Part shown: in pieces, positions 1 to 39,361 of the stretch | How positions within the stretch are numbered: position 1 is the first letter of the stretch | Layout: the number at the start of each line of letters is the position of its first letter | Assembly: GCF_000003605.2 (NCBI RefSeq) | Contig: NW_003159086.1 | Location: 1 to 39,361, forward strand | DNA length: 39,361 nt | Origin: Saccoglossus kowalevskii | Taxonomy: Eukaryota; Hemichordata; Enteropneusta; Harrimaniidae | Direction: 5' to 3' | The notes under the pieces: generated by a model | What the model was told of the DNA's origin: nothing | Databases searched by the model: none | What the model saw: the letters and a program-made list of their open reading frames with translations, nothing else | Program-made: the position numbers and the translations under genes

Positions 1-939
1 ACAATTTATTTGTTTGATGACCAACTGATCACACATATGCACATATATTTGTTTAATGACCAACTGTTCACACATATGCACATATATTTGTTTGATGACC
101 AACTGATCACGCATATGCACATATATTTGTTTGATGACCAACTGATCACACATATGCACATATATTTGTTTGATGACCATCTTGTCACACATATGCACAT
201 ATATTTGTTTGATGACCAACTGATCACACATATGCACATATATTTGTTTAATGACCAACTGATCATGCATATGCACATATATTTGTTTGATGACCAACTG
301 ATCACGCATATGCACATATATTTGTTTGATGACCAACTGGTCACACATATGCACATATATTTGTTTGATGACCAACTGATCACACATATGCACATATATT
401 TGTTTAATGACCAACTGATCACACATATGCACATATATTTGTTTGATGACCAACTGATCACACATATGCACATATATTTGTTTGATGACCAACTGATCAC
501 ACATATGCACATATATTTGTTTGATGACCAACTTATCACACATATGCACATATATTTGTTTGATGACCAACTGATCACACATATGCACATATATTTGTTT
601 GATGACCAACTGATCACACATATGCACATATATTTGTTTCATGACCAACTGATCACACATATGCACATATATTTGTTTAATGACCAACTGATCACACATA
701 TGCACATATATTTGTTTCATGACCAACTGATCACACATATGCACATATATGTGTTTAATGACCAACTGATCACACATATGCACATATATTTGTTTCATGA
801 CCAACTGATCACACATATGCACATATATTTGTTTGATGACCAACTGATCACACATATGCACATATATTTGTTTGATGACCAACTGATCACACATATGCAC
901 ATATATTTGTTTCATGACCAACTGATCACACATATGCAA

Positions 940-1730
940 ATATATTTGTTGGATGACCAACTTATCACACATATGCACATATATTTGTTTGATGACCAAC
1001 TGATCACACATATGCACATATATTTGTTTCATGACCAACTTATCACACATATGCGCATATATTTGTTTGATGACCAACTGATCACACATATGCACATATA
1101 TTTGTTTCATGACCAACTGATCACACATATGCACTTATATTTGTTTGATGACCAACTGATCACACATATGCACATATATTTGTTTCATGACCAACTGATC
1201 ACACATATGCGCATATATGTGTTTAATGACCAACTGATCACACATATGCACATATATTTGTTTGATGACCAACTGATCACACATATGCACATATATTTGT
1301 TTGATGACCAACTGATCACACATATGCACATATATTTGTTGGATGACCAACTTATCACACATATGCACATATATTTGTTTGATGACCAACTGATCACACA
1401 TATGCACATATATTTGTTTCATGACCAACTTATCACACATATGCGCATATATTTGTTTGATGACCAACTGATCACACATATGCACATATATTTGTTTCAT
1501 GACCAACTGATCACACATATGCACTTATATTTGTTTGATGACCAACTGATCACACATATGCACATATATTTGTTTCATGACCAACTGATCACACATATGC
1601 GCATATATGTGTTTAATGACCAACTGATCACACATATGCACATATATTTGTTTGATGACCAACTGATCACACATATGCACATATATTTGTTTGATGACCA
1701 ACTGATCACACATATGCACATATATTTGTT
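940..1730 (+). repeat. 390-bp tandem step (10 monomers) inside the satellite
   Basis: The stretch about 940-1340 is repeated immediately as about 1330-1730, offset by exactly 390 bp. The shared order includes the private marks GCGCATATATTTG, GCACTTATATTTG and GCGCATATATGTGTTTAATG, so it is a block duplication and not chance similarity of monomers. The same ordered block recurs near 25.79-25.96, 27.53-27.72 and 30.96-31.15 kb. Confidence 0.85.
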
Positions 1731-4700
1731 TGATGACCAACTGATCACACATATGCACATATATTTGTTTGATGACCAACTGATCACACATATGCACATA
1801 TATTTGTTTCATGACCAACTGATCACACATATGCACATATATTTGTTTGATGACCAACTGATCACACATATGCACATATATTTGTTTGATGACCAACTGA
1901 TCACACATATGCACATATATTTGTTTGATGACCAACTGATCACACATATGCACATATATTTGTTTCATGACCAACTGATCACACATATGCACATATATTT
2001 GTTGGATGACCAACTTATCACACATATGCACATATATTTGTTTGATGACCAACTGATCACACATATGCACATATATTTGTTTCATGACCAACTTATCACA
2101 CATATGCACATATATTTGTTTGATGACCAACTGATCACACATATGCACATATATTTGTTTGATGACCAACTGATCACACATATGCACATATATTTGTTTC
2201 ATGACCAACTGATCACACATATGCACATATATTTGTTGGATGACCAACTTATCACACATATGCACATATATTTGTTTGATGACCAACTGATCACACATAT
2301 GCACATATATTTGTTTCATGACCAACTGATCACACATATGCACATATATTTGTTTGATGACCAACTGATCACACATATGCACATATATTTGTTTGATGAC
2401 CAACTGATCACACATATGCACTTATATTTGTTTCATGACCAACTTATCACACATATGCACATATATTTGTTTCATGACCAACTGATCACACATATGCACA
2501 TATATTTGTTTGATGACCAACTGATCACACATATGCACATATATTTGTTTAATGACCAACTGATCACACATATGCACATATATTTGTTTAATGACCAACT
2601 GATCACACATATGCACATATATTTGTTTGATGACCAACTGATCACACATATGCACATATATTTGTTGGATGACCAACTGATCACACATATGCACATATAT
2701 TTGTTTCATGACCAACTTATCACACATATGCACATATATTTGTTTGATGACCAACTGATCACACATATGCACATATATTTGTTTGATTACCAACTGATCA
2801 CACATATGCACATATATTTGTTTCATGACCAACTTATCACACATATGCACATATATTTGTTTGATGACCAACTGATCACACATATGCACATATATTTGTT
2901 TGATGACCAACTGATCACACATATGCACATATATTTGTTTCATGACCAACTTATCACACATATGCACATATATTTGTTTGATGACCAACTTATCACACAT
3001 ATGCACATATATTTGTTTGATGACCAACTGATCACACATATGCACATATATTTGTTTCATGACCAACTTATCACACATATGCACATATATTTGTTTCATG
3101 ACCAACTTATCACACATATGCACATATATTTGCTGGATGACCAACTGATCACACATATGCACATATATTTGTTTCATGACCAACTTATCACACATATGCA
3201 CATATATTTGTTTGATGACCAACTGATCACACATATGCACATATATTTGTTTGATGACCAACTGATCACACATATGCACATATATTTGTTTGATGACCAA
3301 CTGATCACACATATGCACATATATTTGTTTGATGACCAACTTATCACACATATGCACATATATTTGTTTGATGACCAACTGATCACACATATGCACATAT
3401 ATTTGTTGGTTGACCAACTGATCACACATATGCACATATATTTGTTTGATGACCAACTGATCACGCATATGCACATATATTTGTTTGATGACCAATTGAT
3501 CACACATATGCACATATATTTGTTGGATGACCAACTGATCACACATATGCACATATATTTGTTGGATGACCAACTGATCACACATATGCACATATATTTG
3601 TTTCATGACCAACTTATCACACATATGCACATATATTTGTTTCATGACCAACTTATCACACATATGCACATATATTTGTTGGATGACCAACTGATCACAC
3701 ATATGCACATATATTTGTTTCATGACCAACTTATCACACATATGCACATATATTTGTTTGATGACCAACTGATCACACATATGCACATATATTTGTTTGA
3801 TGACCAACTGATCACACATATGCACATATATTTGTTTCATGACCAACTTATCACACATATGCACATATATTTGTTTCATGACCAACTTATCACACATATG
3901 CACATATATTTGTTTGATGACCAACTGATCACACATATGCACATATATTTGTTTCATGACCACCTTATCACACATATGCACATATATTTGTTTGATGACC
4001 AACTGATCACACATATGCACATATATTTGTTTCATGACCAACTTATCACACATATGCACATATATTTGTTTGATGACCAACTGATCACACATATGCACAT
4101 ATATTTGTTGGATGACCAACTGATCACACATATGCACATATATTTGTTTGATGACCAACTTGTCACACATATGCACATATATTTGTTTGATGACCAACTG
4201 ATGACACATATGCACATATATTTGTTGGGTGACCAACTGATCACACATATGCACATATATTTGTTTGATGACCAACTGATCACACATATGCACATATATT
4301 TGTTTCATGACCAACTGATGACACATATGGACATATATTTGTTTCATGACCAACTGATGACACATATGCACATATATTTGTTTGATGACCAACTGATGAC
4401 ACATATGCACATATATTTGTTTCATGACCAACTGATCACACATATGCACATATATTTGTTTCATGACCAACTGATCACACATATGCACATATATTTTTTT
4501 CATGACCAACTGATGACACATATGCACATATATTTGTTTGATGACCAACTGATGACACATATGCACATATATTTGTTTGATGACCATCTGATCACACATA
4601 TGCACATATATTTGTTTGATGACCAACTGATCACACATATGCACATATATTTGTTTGATGACCAACTGATCACACATGCACATATATTTGTTCGATGACC

Positions 4701-5539
4701 AACTGATGACACATATGCACATATATTTGTTTGATGACCAACTGATCACACATATGCACATATATGTGTTTGATGACCAACTTATCACACATATGCACAT
4801 ATATTTGTTGGATGACCAACTTATCACACATATGCACATATATTTGTTTGATGACCAACTGATCACACATATGCACATATATTTGTTTCATGACCAACTG
4901 ATCACACATATGCACATATATTTGTTTGATGACCAACTGATCACACATATGCACTTATATTTGTTTGATGACCAACTGATCACACATATGCACATATATT
5001 TGTTTGATGACCAATTGATCACACATATGCACATATATTTGTTTCATGACCAACTGATCACACATATGCGCATATATGTGTTTAATGACCAACTGATCAC
5101 ACATATGCACATATATTTGTTTGATGACCAACTGATCACACATATGCACATATATTTGTTTGATGACCAACTGATCACACATATGCACATATATTTGTTT
5201 GATGACCAACTTATCACACATATGCACATATATTTGTTTGATGACCAACTGATCACACATATGCACATATATGTGTTTGATGACCAACTTATCACACATA
5301 TGCACATATATTTGTTTCATGACCAACTGATCACGCATATACACATATATTTGTTTCATGACCAACTGATCACACATATGCACATATATTTGTTGGATGA
5401 CCAGCTGATCACACATATGCACATATATTTGTTTGATGACCAACTGATCACACATATGCACATATATTTGTTTCATGACCACCTGATCACACATATGCAC
5501 ATATATTTGTTTGATGACCAACTGATCACACATATGCAC

Positions 5540-5546
5540 ATATATT
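5540..5546. repeat. Putative left target-site duplication, ATATATT
   Basis: ATATATT directly precedes the non-satellite island and recurs at 6261-6267 directly after it. The pair is consistent with a 7-bp duplication made by LINE integration. The motif is part of every monomer and is low complexity, so the true duplication could be shorter, or the match could be partly fortuitous. Confidence 0.5.
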
Positions 5547-6122
5547 ACATGCAATATTAATAATCAGCTAAAATGGGCAAAATCAGTACAGGAAATAATA
5601 GGAAGTGAAATAAATGGATTTTGGAGTAGAGGTAACAAAAATATACAACAAATAAGTAGCCAAATAGAAAAGAATTATATTGAATTATGGAAAAAACAAA
5701 TAACCTCAAAAAAATCATCATCAGGTGAAAATAATAAATTAAGAACTTATTGTAAATTCAAAAATGAATTCAAAATGGAACAGTATTTAACACAAATTAA
5801 AGACCCCCACTATAGAAAAAGTATCTGTAAATTCAGGATAAGTGACCATGGTCTAATGATAGAGAAGGGTAGGCATGTTAGACCAAAAATAAAGTTTGAA
5901 GAAAGGGTATGCAAAAAGTGTGATACGGATGCAGTGGAGGATGAATTCCATTTCCTGATTGATTGTCCAAGTCATAAAAATGCAAGATGTCAGCTGTTTG
6001 GAAAAATTGCTCATATACATCCATATTTTAATTTGATGAAACCAGATGACAAGTTCATATACATTATGAGCAATGTAGATAAGGAACTTGCGAACTATAT
6101 TAGAGAATGTGGTGCATTTTAA
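5547..6122 (+). pseudogene. C-terminal fragment of a LINE ORF2-like polyprotein
   Basis: The frame is open from a TGA in the satellite (5523-5525) through the junction to TAA at 6120-6122, giving about 191 element-derived codons. The first in-frame methionine well inside it is at 5775, but it is unlikely to be a true start because the related-looking sequence continues upstream (W, KLRTYCKFKNEF). The segment FKxEFxxEQYL, then YRKSICKFRISDHGLMIEKG, then a C-x2-C-x9-H-x4-C cluster (codons at 5910, 5919, 5949 and 5964) followed by a short helical tail is, from my knowledge of the family, the usual end of animal LINE polyproteins, downstream of the reverse transcriptase domain. The Cys/His cluster probably binds zinc and nucleic acid. 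No frameshift or stop interrupts the fragment, which suggests a fairly recent insertion. It cannot retrotranspose by itself, since catalytic domains are missing. The family assignment is by recognition and was not searched. Confidence 0.75.
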
Positions 6123-6260
6123 ATATATATATCAATATTTCATAATTTTAAATATGTATTTATTTAAACTACATATTAATTTCTTCCTTTTTTTTAATTT
6201 TAATTATTAGTTTAGCACTTGACTGTATGTTCTCTTCAAACAGAATGATGTCAATAAAGT
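6123..6260 (+). other. LINE 3' untranslated tail
   Basis: About 138 bp of AT-rich sequence between the stop codon and the right junction. It includes an 8-T run at 6188-6195 and a less AT-rich end (CACTTGACTGTATGTTCTC around 6217-6235). It has no similarity to the monomer until the junction. In LINEs the 3' end is the part recognised by the element's reverse transcriptase; that role is inferred here from position only. Confidence 0.65.
6253..6258 (+). promoter_or_regulatory. Polyadenylation signal AATAAA
   Basis: A canonical AATAAA lies 130 bp after the ORF stop and just before the element's end. Its place at the extreme 3' end is typical of retrotransposon transcripts. The sequence is AT-rich, so the hexamer alone is weak evidence; the position gives the call its weight. 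Confidence 0.6.
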
Positions 6261-6267
6261 ATATATT
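6261..6267. repeat. Putative right target-site duplication, ATATATT
   Basis: Second copy of ATATATT, at the junction where satellite resumes with TGTTTGATGACC. It pairs with 5540-5546. One copy fits exactly in an uninterrupted monomer. Confidence 0.5.
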
Positions 6268-9200
6268 TGTTTGATGACCAACTGATCACACATATGCACA
6301 TATATTTGTTGGATGACCAACTGATCACACATATGCACATATATGTGTTTGATGACCAACTGATCACGCATATGCACATATATTTGTTTCATGACCAACT
6401 GATCACACATATGCACATATATTTGTTGGATGACCAACTGATCACACATATGCACATATATTTGTTGGATGACCAACTGATCACACATATGCACATATAT
6501 TTGTTTCATGACCAACTTATCACACATATGCACATATATTTGTTTCATGACCAACTTATCACACATATGCACATATATTTGTTGGATGACCAACTGATCA
6601 CACATATGCACATATATTTGTTTCATGACCAACTTATCACACATATGCACATATATTTGTTTGATGACCAACTGATCACACATATGCACATATATTTGTT
6701 TGATGACCAACTGATCACACATATGCACATATATTTGTTGGATGACCAACTGATCACACATATGCACATATATTTGTTTGATGACCAACTGATCACACAT
6801 ATGCACATATATGTGTTTGATGACCAACTGATCACACATATGCACATATATTTGTTTGATGACCAACTTATCACATATATGCACATATATTTGTTTGATG
6901 ACCAACTGATCACACATATGCACATATATTTGTTTCATGACCAACTGATCACACATATGCACATATATTTGTTTGATGACCAACTGATCACACATGCACA
7001 TATATTTGTTTGATGACCAACTGATCACACATATGCACATATATTTGTTGGATGACCAACTGATCACACATATGCACATATATTTGTTTGATGACCAACT
7101 GATCACACATATGCACATATATTTGTTTCATGACCAACTGATGACACATATGCACATATATTTGTTTCATGACCAACTGATGACACATATGCACATTTAT
7201 TTGTTTGATGACCAACTGATGACACATATGCACATATATTTGTTTCATGACCAACTGATCACACATATGCACATACCCGGTATATTTGTTTCATGACCAA
7301 CTGATCACACATATGCACATATATTTTTTTCATGACCAACTGATGACACATATGCACATATATTTGTTTGATGACCAACTGATGACACATATGCACATAA
7401 ATTTGTTTCATGACCAACTGATCACACATATGCACATATATTTGTTTGATGACCAACTGATCACACATATGCACATATATGTGTTTGATGACCAACTTAT
7501 CACACATATGCACATATATTTGTTTGATGACCAACTGATCACACATATGCACATATATGTGTTTAATGACCAACTGATCACGCATATGCACATATATTTG
7601 TTTAATGACCAACTGATCACGCATATGCACATATATGTGTTTAATGACCAACTGATCACACATATGCACATATATTTGTTTGATGACCAACTGATTACAC
7701 ATATGCACATATATTTGTTTGATGACCAACTGATCACACATATGCACATATATTTGTTTGATGACCAACTGATCACACATATGCACATATATTTGTTTGA
7801 TGACCAACTTATCACATATATGCACATATATTTGTTTCATGACCAACTGATCACACATATGCACATATATTTGTTTGATGACCAACTGATCACACATATG
7901 CACATATATTTGTTTCATGACCAACTTATCACACATATGCACATATATTTGTTTCATGACCAACTTGATCACACATATGCACATATATTTGTTTGATGAC
8001 AAACTGATCACACATATGCACATATATTTGTTTGATGACCAACTGATCACGCATATGCACATATATTTGTTTGATGACCAACTGATCACACATATGCACA
8101 TATATTTGTTGGATGACCAACTGATCACACATATGCACATATATTTGTTTGATGACCAACTGATCACACATATGCACATATATTTGTTTGATGACCAACT
8201 GATCACACATATGCACATATATGTGTTTGATGACCAACTGATCACGCATATGCACATATATGTGTTGGATGACCAACTGATCACACATATGCACATATAT
8301 TTGTTTGATGACCAACTGATCACACATATGCACATATATGTGTGTGATGACCAACTGATCACACATATGCGCATATATGTGTTTGATGACCAACTGATCA
8401 CACATATGCACATATATTTGTTTAATGACCAACTGATCACACATATGCACATATATTTGTTTGATGACCAACTGATCACACATATGCACATATATGTGTT
8501 TGATGACCAACTGATCACACATATGCACATATGTGTTGGATGACCAACTGATCACACATATGCACATATATTTGTTTGATGACCAACTGATCACACATAT
8601 GCACATATATGTGTTTGATGACCAACTGATCACACATATGCACATATATTTGTTTCATGACCAACTGATCACACATATGCACATGTATGTGTTTAATGAC
8701 CAACTGATCACGCATATGCACATATATTTGTTTGATGACCAACTGATCACACATATGCACATATATTTGTTTAATGACCAACTGATCACACATATGCACA
8801 TTTATTTGTTTGATGACCAACTGATCACACATATGCACATATATTTGTTTAATGACCAACTGATCACACATATGCACATTTATTTGTTTGATGACCAACT
8901 GATCACACATATGCACATACATTTGTTTCATGACCAACTTATCACACATATGCACATATATTTGTTTGATGACCAACTGATCACACATATGCACATATAT
9001 TTGTTTGATGACCAACTGATCACACATATGCACATATATTTGTTTCATGACCAACTTATCACACATATGCACACATATTTGTTTCATGACCAACTGATCA
9101 CACATATACACATATATTTGTTTGATGACCAACTGATCACACATATGCACATATATTTGTTTCATGACCAACTTATCACACATATGCACATATATTCGTT

Positions 9201-11407: not shown

Positions 11408-11421
11408 ATATACCGGTATAT
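11408..11421. repeat. 14-bp perfect palindrome ATATACCGGTATAT (copy 1)
   Basis: A self-complementary 14-mer centred on CCGG replaces the usual CACATATATTTG junction, followed by TTTTTTTGATGACC. It recurs at 14404-14417 and 29916-29929. It is one of the few CpG-containing sites in the array. Confidence 0.85.
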
Positions 11422-15197: not shown

Positions 15198-17905
15198 TTG
15201 ATGACCAAACTGATCACACATATGCACATAAATTTGTTTCATGACCAACTGATCACACATATGCACATATATTTGTTTGATGACCAACTGATCACACATA
15301 TGCACATATATGTGTTTGATGACCAACTTATCACACATATGCACATATATTTGTTTCATGACCAACTGATCACGCATATACACATATATTTGTTTCATGA
15401 CCAACTGATCACACATATGCACATATATTTGTTGGATGACCAACTTATCACACATATGCACATATATTTGTTTCATGACCAACTGATCACACATATGCAC
15501 ATATATTTGTTTCATGACCAACTGATCACACATATGCACATATATTTGTTTCATGACCAACTGATCACACATATGCACATATATTTGTTTGATGACCAAC
15601 TGATCACACATATGCACATATATTTGTTTGATGACCAACTGATCACACATATGCACATATATGTGTTTGATGACCAACTGATCACACATATGCACATATA
15701 TTTGTTGGATGACCAACTGATCACACATATGCACATATATTTGTTTGATGACCAACTGATCACACTTATGCACATATATTTGTTGGATGACCAACTTATC
15801 ACACATATGCACATATATTTGTTTGATGACCAACTGATCACACATATGCACATATATTTGTTTGATGACCAACTGATCACACATATGCACATATATTTGT
15901 TTGATGACCAACTAATCACACATATGCACATATATTTGTTTGATGACCAACTTATCACATATATGCACATATATTTGTTTGATGACCAACTGATCACACA
16001 TATGCACATATATTTGTTTCATGACCAACTGATCACACATATGCACATATATTTGTTTGATGACCAACTGATCACACATGCACATATATTTGTTTGATGA
16101 CCAACTGATCACACATATGCACATATATTTGTTGGATGACCAACTGATCACACATATGCACATATATTTGTTTGATGACCAACTGATCACACATATGCAC
16201 ATATATTTGTTTCATGACCAACTGATGACACATATGCACATATATTTGTTTCATGACCAACTGATGACACATATGCACATTTATTTGTTTGATGACCAAC
16301 TGATGACACATATGCACATATATTTGTTTCATGACCAACTGATCACACATATGCACATACCCGGTATATTTGTTTCATGACCAACTGATCACACATATGC
16401 ACATATATTTTTTTCATGACCAACTGATGACACATATGCACATATATTTGTTTGATGACCAACTGATGACACATATGCACATAAATTTGTTTCATGACCA
16501 ACTGATCACACATGCACATATATTTGTTTGATGACCAACTGATCACACATATGCACATATATGTGTTTGATGACCAACTTATCACACATATGCACATATA
16601 TTTGTTTCATGACCAACTGATCACGCATATACACATATATTTGTTTCATGACCAACTGATCACACATATGCACATATATTTGTTGGATGACCAACTTATC
16701 ACACATATGCACATATATTTGTTTCATGACCAACTGATCACACATATGCACATATATTTGTTTCATGACCAACTGATCACACATATGCACATATATTTGT
16801 TTCATGACCAACTGATCACACATATGCACATATATTTGTTTCATGACCAACTGATCACACATATGCACATATATTTGTTTGATGACCAACTGATCACACA
16901 TATGCACATATATGTGTTTGATGACCAACTGATCACACATATGCACATATATTTGTTTGATGACCAACTGATCACACATATGCACATATATTTGTTTGAT
17001 GACCAACTTGTCACACATATGCACATATATTTGTTTGATGACCAACTGATGACACATATGCACATATATTTGTTGGATGACCAACTGATCACACATATGC
17101 ACATATATTTGTTTGATGACCAACTGATCACACATATGCACATATATTTGTTTCATGACCAACTGATGACACATATGCACATATATTTGTTTCATGACCA
17201 ACTGATGACACATATGCACATTTATTTGTTTGATGACCAACTGATGACACATATGCACATATATTTGTTTCATGACCAACTGATCACACATATGCACATA
17301 TATTTGTTTCATGACAAACTGATCACACATATGCACATATATTTTTTTCATGACCAACTGATGACACATATGCACATATATTTGTTTGATGACCAACTGA
17401 TGACACATATGCACATATATTTTTTTGATGACCAACTGATCACACTTATGCACATATATTTGTTGGATGACCAACTGATCACGCATATGCACATATATGT
17501 GTTTCATGACCAACTGATCACACATATGCACATATATTTGTTGGATGACCATCTGATCACACATATGCACATATATTTGTTTGATGACCAACTGATCACA
17601 CATATGCACATATATTTGTTTGATGACCAACTTATCACACATATGCACATATATTTGTTGGATGACCAACTGATCACACATATGCACATATATTTGTTTG
17701 ATGACCAACTGATCACACTTATGCACATATATTTGTTGGATGACCAACTTATCACACATATGCACATATATTTGTTTCATGACCAACTGATCACACATAT
17801 GCACATATATTTGTTTGATGACCAACTGATCACACATATGCACATATATTTGTTTCATGACCAACTGATCACACATATGCACATATATTGTTTGATGACC
17901 AACTG
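15198..17905 (+). repeat. Satellite segment, two steps of the ~1.25-kb higher-order repeat
   Basis: The marker CACGCATATACACATAT occurs at 15371 and 16622, 1,251 bp apart, each within the same run of TTTGAT, TTTCAT and TTGGAT monomers. The segment about 15198-16500 closely parallels 36.6-38 kb, where the same markers sit 21,400 bp further on. It includes the second CCCGG unit (16360-16364), 37-bp units near 16076 and 16510, many CTGATGACAC units, and ATATTTTTTTCATG units. No gene is seen. Confidence 0.9.
16360..16364. repeat. Marker monomer with inserted CCCGG (copy 2)
   Basis: Same unit as at 7276-7280, offset 9,084 bp. The eight or so monomers before it and several after it match copy 1 in order. 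Confidence 0.9.
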
Positions 17906-20900
17906 ATCACACATGCACATATATTGTTGATGACCAACTGATCACACATATGCACATATATTTGTTGATGACCAACTGATCACACATATGCACATATATG
18001 TGTTTGATGACCAACTGATCACACATATGCACATATATTTGTTTGATGACCAACTGATCACACATATGCACATATATTTGTTTGATGACCAACTTGTCAC
18101 ACATATGCACATATATTTGTTTGATGACCAACTGATGACACATATGCACATATATTTGTTGGATGACCAACTGATCACACATATGCACATATATTTGTTT
18201 GATGACCAACTGATCACACATATGCACATATATTTGTTTCATGACCAACTGATGACACATATGCACATATATTTGTTTCATGACCAACTGATGACACATA
18301 TGCACATTTATTTGTTTGATGACCAACTGATCACACATATGCACATATATTTGTTTCATGACCAACTGATCACACATATGCACATATATTTGTTTCATGA
18401 CCAACTGATCACACATATGCACATATATTTTTTTCATGACCAACTGATGACACATATGCACATATATTTGTTTGATGACCAACTGATGACACATATGCAC
18501 ATAAATTTGTTTCATGACCAACTGATCACACATATGCACATATATTTGTTTGATGACCAACTGATCACACATATGCACATATATTTGTTGGATGACCAAC
18601 TTATCACACATATGCACATATATTTGTTTCATGACCAACTGATCACACATATGCACATATATTTGTTTCATGACCAACTGATCACACATATGCACATATA
18701 TTTGTTTCATGACCAACTGATCACACATATGCACATATATGTGTTTGATGACCAACTTATCGCACATATGCACATATATTTGTTGGATGACCAACTGATC
18801 ACACATATGCACATATATTTGTTTGATGACCAACTGATCACACATATGCACATATATTTGTTTCATGACCACCTGATCACACATATGCACATATATTTGT
18901 TTGATGACCAACTGATCACACATATGCACATATATTTGTTTGATGACCAACTGATCACACATATGCACATATATTTGTTTCATGACCAACTGATCACACT
19001 TATGCACATATATTTGTTGGATGACCAACTGATCACGCATATGCACATATATTTGTTTCATGACCAACTGATCACACATATGCACATATATTTGTTGGAT
19101 GACCAACTGATCACACATATGCACATATATTTGTTGGATGACCAACTGATCACACATATGCACATATATTTGTTTCATGACCAACTTATCACACATATGC
19201 ACATATATTTGTTTCATGACCAACTTATCACACATATGCACATATATTTGTTGGATGACCAACTGATCACACATATGCACATATATTTGTTTCATGACCA
19301 ACTTATCACACATATGCACATATATTTGTTTGATGACCAACTGATCACACATATGCACATATATTTGTTTGATGACCAACTGATCACACATATGCACATA
19401 TATTTGTTTCATGACCAACTTATCACACATATGCACATATATTTGTTTCATGACCAACTTGTCACACATATGCACATATATTTGTTTCATGACCAACTGA
19501 TCACACATATGCACATATATTTGTTTGATGACCAACTGATCACACATATGCACATATATTTGTTTCATGACCAACTGATCACACATATGCACATATATTT
19601 GTTTGATGACCAACTGATCACACATGCACATATATTTGTTTGATGACCAACTGATCACACATATGCACATATATTTGTTTGATGACCAACTGATCACACA
19701 TATGCACATATATGTGTTTGATGACCAACTGATCACACATATGCACATATATTTGTCTGATGACCAACTGATCACACATATGCACATATATTTGTTTGAT
19801 GACCAACTGATGACACATATGCACATATATTTGTTGGATGACCAACTGATCACACATATGCACATATATTTGTTTGATGACCAACTGATCACACATATGC
19901 ACATATATTTGTTTCATGACCAACTGATGACACATATGCACATATATTTGTTTCATGACCAACTGATGACACATATGCACATATATTTGTTTGATGACCA
20001 ACTGATGACACATATGCACATATATTTGTTTCATGACCAACTGATCACACATATGCACATATATTTGTTTCATGACCAACTGATCACACATATGCACATA
20101 TATTTTTTTCATGACCAACTGATGACACATATGCACATATATTTGTTTGATGACCAACTGATGACACATATGCACATAAATTTGTTTCATGACCAACTGA
20201 TCACACATATGCACATATATTTGTTTGATGACCAACTGATCACACATATGCACATATATTTGTTTCATGACCAACTGATCACACATATGCACATATATTT
20301 GTTTGATGACCAACTGATCACACATGCACATATATTTGTTTGATGACCAACTGATCACACATATGCACATATATGTGTTTGATGACCAACTGATCACACA
20401 TATGCACATATATTTGTTTGATGACCAACTGATCACACATATGCACATATATTTGTTTGATGACCAACTTGTCACACATATGCACATATATTTGTTTGAT
20501 GACCAACTGATGACACATATGCACATATATTTGTTGGATGACCAACTGATCACACATATGCACATATATTTGTTTCATGACCAACTGATCACACATATGC
20601 ACATATATTTGTTTGATGACCAACTGATCACACATGCACATATATTTGTTTGATGACCAACTGATCACACATTTGCACATATATGTGTTTGATGACCAAC
20701 TGATCACACATATGCACATATATTTGTTTGATGACCAACTGATCACACATATGCACATATATTTGTTTGATGACCAACTTGTCACACATATGCACATATA
20801 TTTGTTTGATGACCAACTGATGACACATATGCACATATATTTGTTGGATGACCAACTGATCACACATATGCACATATATTTGTTTGATGACCAACTGATC

Positions 20901-20950: not shown

Positions 20951-23900
20951 CATATTATTTGTTTGATGACCAACTATCACACATATGCACATATATTTGT
21001 TTCATGACCAACTGATCACACATATGCACATATATGTGTTTGATGACCAACTTATCACACATATGCACATATATTTGTTTGATGACCAACTGATCACACA
21101 TATGCACATATATTTGTTTGATGACCAACTGATCACACATATGCACATATATTTGTTGGATGACCAACTTATCACACATATGCACATATATTTGTTTAAT
21201 GACCAACTGATCACACATGCACATATATTTGTTTAATGACCAACTGATCACACATGCACATATATTTGTTGGATGACCAACTGATCACACATATGCTCAT
21301 ATATTTGTTTAATGACCAACTGATCACACATGCACATATATTTGTTGGATGACCAACTGATCACACATATGCACATATATTTGTTTAATGACCAACTGAT
21401 CACACATGCACATATATTTGTTTGATGACCAACTGATCACACATATGCACATATATTTGTTTCATGACCAACTGATCACACATATGCACATATATTTGTT
21501 TCATGACCAACTGATCACACATATGCACATATATTTGTTTCATGACCAACTTATCACACATATGCACATATATTTGTTTGATGACCAACTGATCACACAT
21601 ATGCACATATATTTGTTTCATGACCAACTTATCACACATATGCGCATATATTTGTTTGATGACCAACTGATCACACATATGCACATATATTTGTTTCATG
21701 ACCAACTGATCACACATATGCACATATATTTGTTTGATGACCAACTGATCACACATATGCACATATATTTGTTTGATGACCAACTTGTCACACATATGCA
21801 CATTTATTTGTTTGATGACCAACTGATCACACATATGCACATATATTTGTTTAATGACCAACTGTTCACACATATGCACATATATTTGTTTGATGACCAA
21901 CTGATCACGCATATGCACATATATTTGTTTGATGACCAACTGATCACACATATGCACATATATTTGTTTGATGACCATCTTGTCACACATATGCACATAT
22001 ATTTGTTTGATGACCAACTGATCACACATATGCACATATATTTGTTTAATGACCAACTGATCATGCATATGCACATATATTTGTTTGATGACCAACTGAT
22101 CACGCATATGCACATATATTTGTTTGATGACCAACTGGTCACACATATGCACATATATTTGTTTGATGACCAACTGATCACACATATGCACATATATTTG
22201 TTTAATGACCAACTGATCACACATATGCACATATATTTGTTTGATGACCAACTGATCACACATATGCACATATATTTGTTGCATGACCAACTGATCACAC
22301 ATATGCACATATATTTGTTTGATGACCAACTGATCACACATATGCACATATATGTGTTTGATGACCAACTTATCACACATATGCACATATATTTGTTTGA
22401 TGACCAACTGATCACACATATGCACATATATTTGTTTGATGACCAACTGATCACACATATGCACATATATTTGTTTAATGACCAACTGATCACACATGCA
22501 CATATATTTGTTTAATGACCAACTGATCACACATGCACATATATTTGTTGGATGACCAACTGATCACACATATGCTCATATATTTGTTTAATGACCAACT
22601 GATCACACATGCACATATATTTGTTGGATGACCAACTGATCACACATATGCACATATATTTGTTTAATGACCAACTGATCACACATGCACATATATTTGT
22701 TTAATGACCAACTGATCACACATGCACATATATTTGTTGGATGACCAACTGATCACACATATGCACATATATTTGTTTCATGACCAACTGATCACGCATA
22801 TGCACATATATTTGTTTGATGACCAACTGATCACATATATGCACATATATTTGTTTCATGACCAACTTGTCACACATATGCACATATATTTGTTTGATGA
22901 CCAACTGATCACACATATGCACATATATTTGTTTAATGACCAACTGATCATGTATATGCACATATATTTGTTTGATGACCAACTGATCACGCATATGCAC
23001 ATATATTTGTTTGATGACCAACTGGTCACACATATGCACATATATTTGTTTGATGACCAACTGATCACACATATGCACATATATTTGTTTAATGACCAAC
23101 TGATCACACATATGCACATATATTTGTTTGATGACCAACTGATCACACATATGCACATATATTTGTTGCATGACCAACTGATCACACATATGCACATATA
23201 TTTGTTTGATGACCAACTGATCACACATATGCACATATATGTGTTTGATGACCAACTTATCACACATATGCACATATATTTGTTTGATGACCAACTGATC
23301 ACACATATGCACATATATTTGTTTGATGACCAACTGATCACACATATGCACATATATTTGTTTAATGACCAACTGATCACACATGCACATATATTTGTTT
23401 AATGACCAACTGATCACACATGCACATATATTTGTTGGATGACCAACTGATCACACATATGCTCATATATTTGTTTAATGACCAACTGATCACACATGCA
23501 CATATATTTGTTGGATGACCAACTGATCACACATATGCACATATATTTGTTTAATGACCAACTGATCACACATGCACATATATTTGTTTAATGACCAACT
23601 GATCACACATGCACATATATTTGTTGGATGACCAACTGATCACACATATGCACATATATTTGTTTCATGACCAACTGATCACGCATATGCACATATATTT
23701 GTTTGATGACCAACTGATCACATATATGCACATATATTTGTTTGATGACCAACTGATCACACATATGCACATATATTTGTTTGATGACCAACTGATCACA
23801 CATATGCACTTATATTTGTTTGATGACCAACTGATCACATATATGCACATATATTTGTTTGATGACCAACTGATCACACATATGCACATATATTTGTTGG

Positions 23901-24655
23901 ATGACCAACTGATCACACATATGCACATATATTTGTTTGATGACCAACTGATCACGCATCTGCACTTATATTTGTTTGATGACCAACTGATCACACATAT
24001 GCACATATATTTGTTTCATGACCAACTGATCACACATATACACATATATTTGTTTGATGACCAACTGATCACACATATGCACATATATTTGTTTGATGAC
24101 CAGCTGATCACACATATGCACATATATTTGTTTGATGACCAACTGATCACACATATGCACATGCATTTGTTTGATGGCCAACTGATGACACATATGCACA
24201 TATATTTGTTTGATGACCAACTTATCACACATATGCACATATATTTGTTTCATGACCAACTGATCACACATATGCACATATATGTGTTTGATGACCAACT
24301 TATCACACATATGCACATATATTTGTTTGATGACCAACTGATCACACATATGCACATATATTTGTTTGATGACCAACTGATCACACATATGCACATATAT
24401 TTGTTGGATGACCAACTTATCACACATATGCACATATATTTGTTTAATGACCAACTGATCACACATGCACATATATTTGTTTAATGACCAACTGATCACA
24501 CATGCACATATATTTGTTGGATGACCAACTGATCACACATATGCTCATATATTTGTTTAATGACCAACTGATCACACATGCACATATATTTGTTGGATGA
24601 CCAACTGATCACACATATGCACATATATTTGTTTAATGACCAACTGATCACACAT
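20951..24655 (+). repeat. Satellite segment with four clusters of 37-bp monomers
   Basis: Clusters at about 21215-21415, 22490-22725, 23380-23625 and 24460-24660 mix 37-bp units (TTTAATGACC with CACACATGCAC) and 39-bp units (TTGGATGACC with CATATGCTCATAT). Cluster-to-cluster spacings are about 1.28, 0.89 and 1.08 kb. Between clusters the monomer order is largely conserved, for example TTGCATGACC units near 22280 and 23167. No gene is seen. Confidence 0.9.
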
Positions 24656-32400: not shown

Positions 32401-35400
32401 TGATCACACATGCACATATATTTGTTCGATGACCAACTGATGACACATATGCACATATATTTGTTTGATGACCAACTGATCACACATATGCACATATATG
32501 TGTTTGATGACCAACTTATCACACATATGCACATATATTTGTTGGATGACCAACTTATCACACATATGCACATATATTTGTTTGATGACCAACTGATGAC
32601 ACATATGCACATATATTTGTTTCATGACCAACTGATCACACATATGCACATATATTTGTTTCATGACCAACTGATCACACATATGCACATATATTTTTTT
32701 CATGACCAACTGATGACACATATGCACATATATTTGTTTGATGCCCAACTGATGACACATATGCACATAAATTTGTTTCATGACCAACTGATCACACATA
32801 TGCACATATATTTGTTTGATGACCAACTGATCACACATATGCACATATATGTGTTTGATGACCAACTTATCACACATATGCACATATATTTGTTTCATGA
32901 CCAACTGATCACGCATATACACATATATTTGTTTCATGACCAACTGATCACACATATGCACATATATTTGTTGGATGACCAACTTATCACACATATGCAC
33001 ATATATTTGTTTCATGACCAACTGATCACACATATGCACATATATTTGTTTCATGACCAACTGATCACACATATGCACATATATTTGTTTCATGACCAAC
33101 TGATCACACATATGCACATATATGTGTTTGATGACCAACTTATCACACATATGCACATATATTTGTTTCATGACCAACTGATCACGCATATACACATATA
33201 TTTGTTTCATGACCAACTGATCACACATATGCACATATATTTGTTGGATGACCAACTGATCACACATATGCACATATGCACATATATTTGTTTGATGACC
33301 AACTGATCACACATATGCACATATATTTGTTTCATGACCACCTGATCACACATATGCACATATATTTGTTTGATGACCAACTGATCACACATATGCACAT
33401 ATATTTGTTTGATGACCAACTGATCACACATATGCACATATATTTGTTTGATGACCAACTGATCACACATATGCACATATATTTGTTTCATGACCAACTG
33501 ATCACACATATGCACATATATTTGTTTGATGACCAACTTATCACGCATATGCACATATATTTGTTTGATGACCAACTGATCACACATATGCACATATATT
33601 TGTTTCATGACCAACTGATCACACTTATGCACATATATTTGTTGGATGACCAACTGATCACGCATATGCACATATATTTGTTTCATGACCAACTGATCAC
33701 ACATATGCACATATATTTGTTGGATGACCAACTGATCACACATATGCACATATATTTGTTTCATGACCAACTGATCACACATATGCACATATATTTGTTT
33801 CATGACCAACTGATCACACATATGCACATATATTTGTTTCATGACCAACTGATCACATATATGCACATATATTTGTTTGATGACCAACTGATCACACATA
33901 TGCACATATATTTGTTTCATGACCAACTGATCACACATATGCACATATATTTGTTTGATGACCAACTGATCACACATATGCACATATATTTGTTTGATGA
34001 CCAACTGATCACACATATGCACATATATTTGTTTGATGACCAACTGATCACACATATGCACATATATGTGTTTCATGACCAACTTATCACACATATGCAC
34101 ATATATTTGTTTGATGACCAACTGATCACACATATGCACATATATTTGTTTCATGACCAACTGATCACACATATGCACATATATTTGTTTCATGACCAAC
34201 TGATCACACATATGCACATATATTTGTTTCATGACCAACTGATCACATATATGCACATATATTTGTTTGATGACCAACTGATCACACATATGCACATATA
34301 TTTGTTTCATGACCAACTGATCACACATATGCACATATATTTGTTTGATGACCAACTGATCACACATATGCACATATATTTGTTTCATGACCAACTGATC
34401 ACACATATGCACATATATTTGTTTGATGACCAACTGATCACACATATGCACATATATTTGTTTGATGACCAACTGATCACACATATGCACATATATTTGT
34501 TTCATGACCAACTGATCACACTTATGCACATATATTTGTTGGATGACCAACTGATCACGCATATGCATATATATTTGTTTCATGACCAACTGATCACACA
34601 TATGCACATATATTTGTTGGATGACCAACTGATCACACTTATGCACATATATTTGTTGGATGACCAACTGATCACGCATATGCACATATATGTGTTTCAT
34701 GACCAACTGATCACACATATGCACATATATTTGTTTGATGACCAACTGATCACACATATGCACATATATTTGTTTGATGACCAACTTATCACACATATGC
34801 ACATATATTTGTTGGATGACCAACTGATCACACATATGCACATATATTTGTTTGATGACCAACTGATCACACATATGCACATATAGGTTTGAGACCAACT
34901 GATCACACATATGCACATATATTTGTCGAGACCAACGATCACACATATGCACATATATTTGTTTGATGACCAACTTGTCACACATATGCACATATATTTG
35001 TTTGATGACCAACTGATGACACATATGCACATATATTTGTTGGATGACCAACTGATCACACATATGCACATATATTTGTTTGATGACCAACTGATCACAC
35101 ATATGCACATATATTTGTTTCATGACCAACTGATGACACATATGCACATATATTTGTTTCATGACCAACTGATGACACATATGCACATTTATTTGTTTGA
35201 TGACCAACTGATGACACATATGCACATATATTTGTTTCATGACCAACTGATCACACATATGCACATATATTTGTTTCATGACCAACTGATCACACATATG
35301 CACATATATTTTTTTCATGACCAACTGATGACACATATGCACATATATTTGTTTGATGACCAACTGATGACACATATGCACATAAATTTGTTTCATGACC

Positions 35401-36545
35401 AACTGATCACACATATGCACATATATTTGTTTGATGACCAACTGATCACACATATGCACATATATTTGTTGGATGACCAACTTATCACACATATGCACAT
35501 ATATTTGTTTCATGACCAACTGATCACACATATGCACATATATTTGTTTCATGACCAACTGATCACACATATGCACATATATTTGTTTCATGACCAACTG
35601 ATCACACATATGCACATATATGTGTTTGATGACCAACTTATCGCACATATGCACATATATTTGTTTCATGACCAACTGATCACGCATATACACATATATT
35701 TGTTTCATGACCAACTGATCACACATATGCACATATATTTGTTGGATGACCAACTGATCACACATATGCACATATATTTGTTTGATGACCAACTGATCAC
35801 ACATATGCACATATATTTGTTTCATGACCACCTGATCACACATATGCACATATATTTGTTTGATGACCAACTGATCACACATATGCACATATATTTGTTT
35901 GATGACCAACTGATCACACATATGCACATATATTTGTTTCATGACCAACTGATCACACTTATGCACATATATTTGTTGGATGACCAACTGATCACGCATA
36001 TGCACATATATTTGTTTCATGACCAACTGATCACACATATGCACATATATTTGTTGGATGACCAACTGATCACACATATGCACATATATTTGTTGGATGA
36101 CCAACTGATCACACATATGCACATATATTTGTTTCATGACCAACTTATCACACATATGCACATATATTTGTTTCATGACCAACTTATCACACATATGCAC
36201 ATATATTTGTTGGATGACCAACTGATCACACATATGCACATATATTTGTTTCATGACCAACTTATCACACATATGCACATATATTTGTTTGATGACCAAC
36301 TGATCACACATATGCACATATATTTGTTTGATGACCAACTGATCACACATATGCACATATATTTGTTTCATGACCAACTGATCACACATATGCACATATA
36401 TTTGTTTGATGACCAACTGATCACACATGCACATATATTTGTTTGATGACCAACTGATCACACATATGCACATATATTTGTTGGATGACCAACTGATCAC
36501 ACATATGCACATATATTTGTTTGATGACCAACTGATCACACATAT
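32401..36545 (+). repeat. Satellite segment containing block B and a degenerate patch
   Basis: The marker CACGCATATACACATAT occurs at 32910, 33183 (273 bp, seven monomers later) and 35691. A partial tandem slip (CACATATGCACATATGCACAT) is near 33265. The run 34945-36445 is the counterpart of 18060-19640; copy B has two extra monomers after the CTTATCGCAC unit and lacks two near its right end. The minus frame is open across most of the segment only because irregular units happen to change by multiples of three. No gene is seen. Confidence 0.92.
34886..34936. repeat. Two degenerate adjacent monomers, 36 bp each
   Basis: Two consecutive units are disturbed: ATATAGGTTTGAGACCAAC, and then TTTGTCGAGACCAACGATC. 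Each is 3 bp shorter than normal, with clustered deletions and substitutions, while flanking units are clean. It may be a mutated breakpoint at the edge of block B, or a local sequence error. Confidence 0.75.
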
Positions 36546-39361
36546 GCACATATATTTGTTTCATGACCAACTGATGACACATATGCACATATATTTGTTT
36601 CATGACCAACTGATGACACATATGCACATTTATTTGTTTGATGACCAACTGATGACACATATGCACATATATTTGTTTGATGACCAACTGATCACACATA
36701 TGCACATATATGTGTTTGATGACCAACTTATCACACATATGCACATATATTTGTTTCATGACCAACTGATCACGCATATACACATATATTTGTTTCATGA
36801 CCAACTGATCACACATATGCACATATATTTGTTGGATGACCAACTTATCACACATATGCACATATATTTGTTTCATGACCAACTGATCACACATATGCAC
36901 ATATATTTGTTTCATGACCAACTGATCACACATATGCACATATATTTGTTTCATGACCAACTGATCACACATATGCACATATATTTGTTTGATGACCAAC
37001 TGATCACACATATGCACATATATTTGTTTGATGACCAACTGATCACACATATGCACATATATGTGTTTGATGACCAACTGATCACACATATGCACATATA
37101 TTTGTTGGATGACCAACTGATCACACATATGCACATATATTTGTTTGATGACCAACTGATCACACTTATGCACATATATTTGTTGGATGACCAACTTATC
37201 ACACATATGCACATATATTTGTTTCATGACCAACTGATCACACATATGCACATATATTTGTTTGATGACCAACTGATCACACATATGCACATATATTTGT
37301 TTGATGACCAACTAATCACACATATGCACATATATTTGTTTGATGACCAACTTATCACATATATGCACATATATTTGTTTGATGACCAACTGATCACACA
37401 TATGCACATATATTTGTTTCATGACCAACTGATCACACATATGCACATATATTTGTTTGATGACCAACTGATCACACATGCACATATATTTGTTTGATGA
37501 CCAACTGATCACACATATGCACATATATTTGTTGGATGACCAACTGATCACACATATGCACATATATTTGTTTGATGACCAACTGATCACACATATGCAC
37601 ATATATTTGTTTCATGACCAACTGATGACACATATGCACATATATTTGTTTCATGACCAACTGATGACACATATGCACATTTATTTGTTTGATGACCAAC
37701 TGATGACACATATGCACATATATTTGTTTCATGACCAACTGATCACACATATGCACATACCCGGTATATTTGTTTCATGACCAACTGATCACACATATGC
37801 ACATATATTTTTTTCATGACCAACTGATGACACATATGCACATATATTTGTTTGATGACCAACTGATGACACATATGCACATAAATTTGTTTCATGACCA
37901 ACTGATCACACATATGCACATATATTTGTTTGATGACCAACTGATCACACATATGCACATATATGTGTTTGATGACCAACTTATCACACATATGCACATA
38001 TATTTGTTTCATGACCAACTGATCACGCATATACACATATATTTGTTTCATGACCAACTGATCACACATATGCACATATATTTGTTGGATGACCAACTTA
38101 TCACACATATGCACATATATTTGTTTCATGACCAACTGATCACACATATGCACATATATTTGTTTCATGACCAACTGATCACACATATGCACATATATTT
38201 GTTTCATGACCAACTGATCACACATATGCACATATATTTGTTTGATGACCAACTGATCACACATATGCACATATATTTGTTTGATGACCAACTGATCACA
38301 CATATGCACATATATGTGTTTGATGACCAACTGATCACACATATGCACATATATTTGTTGGATGACCAACTGATCACACATATGCACATATATTTGTTTG
38401 ATGACCAACTGATCACACTTATGCACATATATTTGTTGGATGACCAACTTATCACACATATGCACATATATTTGTTTGATGACCAACTGATCACACATAT
38501 GCACATATATTTGTTTGATGACCAACTGATCACACATATGCACATATATTTGTTTGATGACCAACTAATCACACATATGCACATATATTTGTTTGATGAC
38601 CAACTTATCACACATATGCACATATATTTGTTTGATGACCAACTGATCACACATATGCACATATATTTGTTGGATGACCAACTGATCACACATATGCACA
38701 TATATTTGTTTGATGACCAACTGATCACACATATGCACATATATTTGTTTCATGACCAACTGATGACACATATGGACATATATTTGTTTCATGACCAACT
38801 GATGACACATATGCACATATATTTGTTTCATGACCAACTGATCACACATATGCACATATATTTGTTTGATGACCAACTGATCACACATATGCACATATAT
38901 TTGTTGGATGACCAACTTATCACACATATGCACATATATTTGTTTAATGACCAACTGATCACACATGCACATATATTTGTTTAATGACCAACTGATCACA
39001 CATGCACATATATTTGTTGGATGACCAACTGATCACACATATGCTCATATATTTGTTTAATGACCAACTGATCACACATGCACATATATTTGTTGGATGA
39101 CCAACTGATCACACATATGCTCATATATTTGTTTAATGACCAACTGATCACACATGCACATATATTTGTTGGATGACCAACTGATCACACATATGCACAT
39201 ATATTTGTTTCATGACCAACTGATCACACATATGCACATATATTTGTTGGATGACCAACTTATCACACATATGCACATATATTTGTTTGATGACCAACTG
39301 ATCACACATATGCACATATATTTGTTTCATGACCAACTTATCACACATATGCGCATATATT
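36546..39361 (+). repeat. Satellite segment with a 1,253-bp higher-order repeat, running off the window
   Basis: CACGCATATACACATAT occurs at 36771 and 38024, exactly 1,253 bp apart. That equals 32 monomers plus 5 bp, explained by one CCCGG-type unit (+7, at 37760) and one 37-bp unit (-2, near 37475). A 37-bp cluster at about 38960-39170 matches those of 21-24.7 kb, and the last 190 bp resembles 24.66-24.86 kb. The array continues past the window end. No gene is seen. Confidence 0.92.
37760..37764. repeat. Marker monomer with inserted CCCGG (copy 3)
   Basis: Same unit as at 7276-7280 and 16360-16364, offset 21,400 bp from copy 2. It marks the 1,253-bp repeat step in this segment. Confidence 0.9.

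Follow-up and report, generated by a model that had tools for sequence, protein, structure and literature searches.

In the hemichordate Saccoglossus kowalevskii, a foreign insert of 714 bp interrupts a 39-bp satellite array on contig NW_003159086.1 of RefSeq assembly GCF_000003605.2, of which positions 1 to 39,361 of the forward strand (hereafter the window) were analyzed. With high probability, this insert is a 5′-truncated copy of a non-long terminal repeat (non-LTR) retrotransposon, or long interspersed nuclear element (LINE), which entered a monomer of an already existing array through target-primed reverse transcription. A foreign insert within the satellite had first been noticed in an original prediction made from the DNA letters, and its presence was confirmed; the parts of this explanation that we infer are the sequence of events, the assignment of the element to the LINEs, the nick, and the priming.

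The insert and its junctions

The array, the insert, and the bases bordering it were delimited as follows:

7-39361, no strand assigned: 39-bp satellite array with consensus TATTTGTTTGATGACCAACTGATCACACATATGCACATA (Tandem Repeats Finder, period 39, about 1,010 units)
5540-5546, + strand: putative target-site duplication, left copy, ATATATT
5547-6260, + strand: fragment of the inserted element (714 bp), present once within the window
6261-6267, + strand: putative target-site duplication, right copy, ATATATT

Interruptions of the array were sought by wrap-around alignment of the window to the 39-bp consensus. Across the whole window, this alignment gave 5547-6260/6267 as the sole long foreign stretch. 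Outside the insert, indel events comprised 1-5 bases each, with local clusters reaching 6-8 bases (11408-11415, 7273-7280, and 33261-33270). When ungapped identity to the satellite was scored in 60-bp windows with a step of 10, 80 of these fell below 60%, including 10 that were scattered outside the insert region, which we attribute to slips in phase where small indels occur.

The first element base after position 5546 is an A, where the satellite would have a T, and from 6268 the satellite continues exactly in phase. One and the same complete monomer fills the 39 bases to the left of 5547 and the 39 bases from 6268 onward, which bears out the original claim that removal of 5547-6267 leaves an exact monomer in phase. 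A target-site duplication of 7 bp or shorter had also been proposed, and is supported by the presence of ATATATT on both sides of the insert, as looked for in a LINE copy. These 7 bp are the longest overlap common to both junctions; a longer one is impossible, because the flanking bases differ (C on the left, T on the right). ATATATT does not occur within the 714-bp element, and the chance of seven given bases is about 0.2% at the base composition of the 3′ tail. The duplication could be shorter than 7 bp if the tail of the element, compared here in a single copy, ends in TATAT-like bases.

Phase alone was dropped as proof of insertion. In a 39-bp array, target duplications of many lengths would look in-phase, which makes this a weak argument. 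We relied instead on how monomer variants are ordered in counterparts of the site that lack the insertion.

Insertion-free counterparts of the site

The two flanks were joined without the insert (312 bp from each side, 624 in total) and compared across the array, with shifts of 1-4 monomers scored as well. Two counterparts were found:

35584-36207, + strand: best insertion-free counterpart, junction 35895/35896, 8/624 differences (98.7% identity, 616/624)
18625-19248, + strand: second insertion-free counterpart, junction 18936/18937, 16/624 differences

At zero shift, the left flank differed from the best counterpart at 3 of 312 positions and the right flank at 5 of 312, compared to 14-20 and 10-18 differences, respectively, at shifts of 1-4 monomers. 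For the second counterpart, the corresponding numbers were 11/312 and 5/312, and zero shift was again lowest on both sides. When the comparison was extended to positions -312 to +468 relative to the site, the best counterpart showed 8 differences over 780 positions, 5 of which were grouped at +43 to +82 in what looks like a conversion tract, and the second showed 16. Positions 18763-19420 are identical to 35722-36379 over 658 bases, and the two empty copies therefore agree with each other across the junction. The number of monomers is unchanged in both counterparts, with none lost and none gained.

The zero-shift fit of both flanks to these counterparts suggests that the array came first, and that the element then inserted into just one of the copies of a block that had been duplicated. 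That the array is older than the element had previously been argued from phase; the claim is upheld on stronger evidence, namely that the block has two counterparts free of the insertion, and we consider it well supported by the sequence comparison.

Anatomy, identity, and mode of insertion

Within the insert, the following features were recognized:

5547-6122, + strand (frame 1): open frame of 191 codons and a TAA stop (6120-6122), entering from the left edge; probable C-terminal end of a LINE reverse-transcriptase polyprotein
5910-5966, + strand: C-x2-C-x9-H-x4-C motif, read from the translation; 51 residues remain to the end of the frame
6123-6260, + strand: AT-rich 3′ untranslated tail, 138 bp
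6253-6258, + strand: AATAAA, separated by two bases from the right copy of the target

When the insert was resampled 2,000 times under a first-order Markov model, the longest frame reached 165 codons, short of the 191 observed. In this single copy, the frame is open at the left edge and the right edge falls just past AATAAA, the arrangement sought for a 5′ truncation and a genuine 3′ end; the putative 3′ terminus reads AATAAAGT. The CCHC motif resembles those that follow the reverse transcriptase (RT) in LINEs, and the order of an RT polyprotein end with CCHC, a stop, a short tail, and no LTR is presumably that of LINEs of the CR1/L2/RTE sort. 5′-truncated LINE copies of animal genomes likewise carry a C-terminal CCHC motif, a stop, and a short 3′ tail, with the truncation inside the open reading frame (ORF).

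Other structural features were sparse. No inverted repeat pair of at least 12 bp was found in 5547-6260, and terminal repeats were absent, which is a weak test in a truncated copy. One weak direct pair (6138-6162 and 6190-6214, 76% identity) lies inside the AT-rich tail, away from the ends of the insert. RNA folding did not rise above that of shuffled sequences for either the 3′ tail (z 0.12) or its last 48 bases (z 0.18), and no 3′ stem-loop is claimed. After the last C of the motif just 51 residues remain, which seem too few for an R2-type endonuclease domain. The insert would differ in this from R2-type proteins, in which the endonuclease domain follows the CCHC motif (PMC7650587).

In the mechanism that we favor, a nick at the edge of the ATATATT of one monomer would have served as the primer for copying the element RNA, starting at the 3′ end of this RNA. 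The growing complementary DNA (cDNA) would have halted about 714 bases in, within the reverse-transcriptase ORF, and second-strand cleavage 7 bases away would have given rise to the duplication of ATATATT.

Several observations weigh against this mechanism or the evidence on which it is built. AATAAA is not followed by a poly(A) run, the 7-bp overlap at the junctions is short and AT-rich, and the one copy seen does not fix the true 3′ end of the element. Searches with the 191-aa frame returned no relative in Pfam, NCBIfam, PDB sequences, or plasmids, and none of the 2 pattern matches in IMG/VR and the 43 in GTDB contigs was confirmed. These misses say little, because all collections searched with the frame except Pfam and PDB are prokaryotic or viral, and the single-protein contig scans reach close relatives only. 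The fragment would, furthermore, hold just the region after the RT core. As for the counterparts, one at least as good was found for 25.7% of 975 array positions, meaning that internal duplications are common in the array and that such a counterpart is not special to the insertion. The match to the 35895 counterpart is lost beyond about 13 monomers rightward (59/624 differences on the right). The right flank alone is slightly closer to 3365-3832 (4/468), where the left flank is at background (15/312), so that the block is a mosaic.

Two further searches concerned the frame. Peptide words taken from it had no match in paper text. Three phage records at E-values of 0.4-0.5, two of them from the same phage, fell in DNA primase genes or in an unnamed gene and were taken as chance.

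All in all, the insert is most likely a LINE-type element, a name that draws on its anatomy. Of the original description as a LINE fragment in the satellite, the insertion stands: no other long foreign stretch interrupts the array. The anatomy agrees with the LINE label, which received no confirmation from the homology searches. If it is a LINE, the copy would be dead, as it is without promoter, endonuclease, and RT core.

The main rival is that end joining repaired a double-strand break in the array with a stray piece of element or transcript cDNA, in which case ATATATT would be microhomology instead of a target duplication. An overlap of only 7 AT-rich bp, the absence of a poly(A) run, and the single copy in the window would all suit such patch repair. 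However, no satellite base was lost, both flanks fit the insertion-free counterparts at zero shift, and the insert stops just past AATAAA, as a true 3′ end would. We therefore regard end-joining repair as unlikely, and as less likely than target-primed reverse transcription.

It is also conceivable, though very improbable, that the insertion is old: the block would have been duplicated with the element inside, after which inter-monomer recombination removed it from the copies at 35895 and 18936. An array from which the element had been lost through recombination of the flanking monomers would look perfect, and exact internal duplications are common here. Loss by this route should also remove whole monomers, however, as the flanks share only 7 bp at zero shift, and neither counterpart has changed in this respect. 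Since the loss of an older insertion should alter the number of monomers, insertion after duplication is the simpler reading. Finally, satellite arrays are hard to assemble, and an unrelated read end could have been joined into this one, but a misjoin would not be expected to leave the satellite exactly in phase to the left and right, to create a short duplication, or to bring in an element that stops after an AATAAA of its own. An assembly artefact is extremely unlikely.

Age of the insertion and turnover of the array

From the absence of internal stops, it had originally been proposed that the insertion may be young. The frame is indeed open over its 191 codons; the step from there to a young age is weak. 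Stops can accumulate freely in a copy that was dead on arrival, but only 5.9% of the single-base changes in the frame create one. The chance of the frame staying open is accordingly 0.71 at 1% divergence, 0.18 at 5%, 0.07 at 8%, and 0.03 at 10%. With so few stop-making changes, the open frame sets only a loose limit on the age. The closeness of the best counterpart without the insertion (identical at 616/624 positions; different at 8/780) hints at a recent insertion and is a tighter argument than the open frame. Conversion between monomers can keep flanks alike, which calls for caution with this argument.

The array itself seems to have turned over by block duplication, given the long exact repeats within it. 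Exact repeats of 400-790 bp (the longest run per diagonal) were found on 19 diagonals, some of them more than 20 kb apart; examples are 22067-22856, which equals 22954-23743, and 15216-15959, which equals 37869-38612. An identical 7-base insertion occurs at 7273-7280, 16357-16364, and 37757-37764, and travels with exactly duplicated blocks. Units of 37 bp, two bases short (CACATATGC to CACATGC), are clustered at 21216-24653 and 38964-39153, often with a repeated pattern of spacings of 37 or 76 bases, and a higher-order unit may be forming from them. On the + strand, the satellite at 10-4698 contains an open frame of 1,562 codons with a 13-residue repeat; such a frame arises because 39 is divisible by three, and no coding role is claimed. 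A search of Rfam with 5400-6400 (1,001 bases) gave only two microRNA matches, both in the satellite and far below gathering scores, and the exact satellite pattern had no match in IMG/VR or in paper text.

Insertions of this kind have been described in other satellites. In Cuscuta europaea, insertions of the LINE L1-CS in the satellite CUS-TR24 show a preference for their target, and their ends are shifted by about 13-16 bp (PMC8091179). As with the probable LINE in our window, the copies described there lie in a satellite, are mapped to monomer positions, and have target-site duplications. In contrast to L1-CS, our window holds a single truncated copy among about 1,000 monomers, too few to reveal a preference, with a duplication of at most 7 bp. 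Retrotransposon insertions are also present in human alpha-satellite arrays, which likewise contain duplications; these insertions may serve to tag array expansions (PMC12350169). The human case covers L1HS, Alu, and SVA in many genomes, whereas ours concerns one array in one individual.

The process that the insertion illustrates is well known, and the example, although clean, is an ordinary one and not a new kind. It is very doubtful that the element belongs to a LINE lineage favoring the ATATATT of this monomer, with copies at the same position in other arrays of the genome; this window holds one insertion among about 1,000 monomers. On its own, the insertion is of little weight, as LINE copies in satellite arrays are already known. 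Its use would lie in its value as a marker: because only one of the copies of the block carries the element, the duplication can be placed, presumably, before the insertion, and the insertion could tag this segment of the array in other individuals, allowing the rate of array turnover to be measured.
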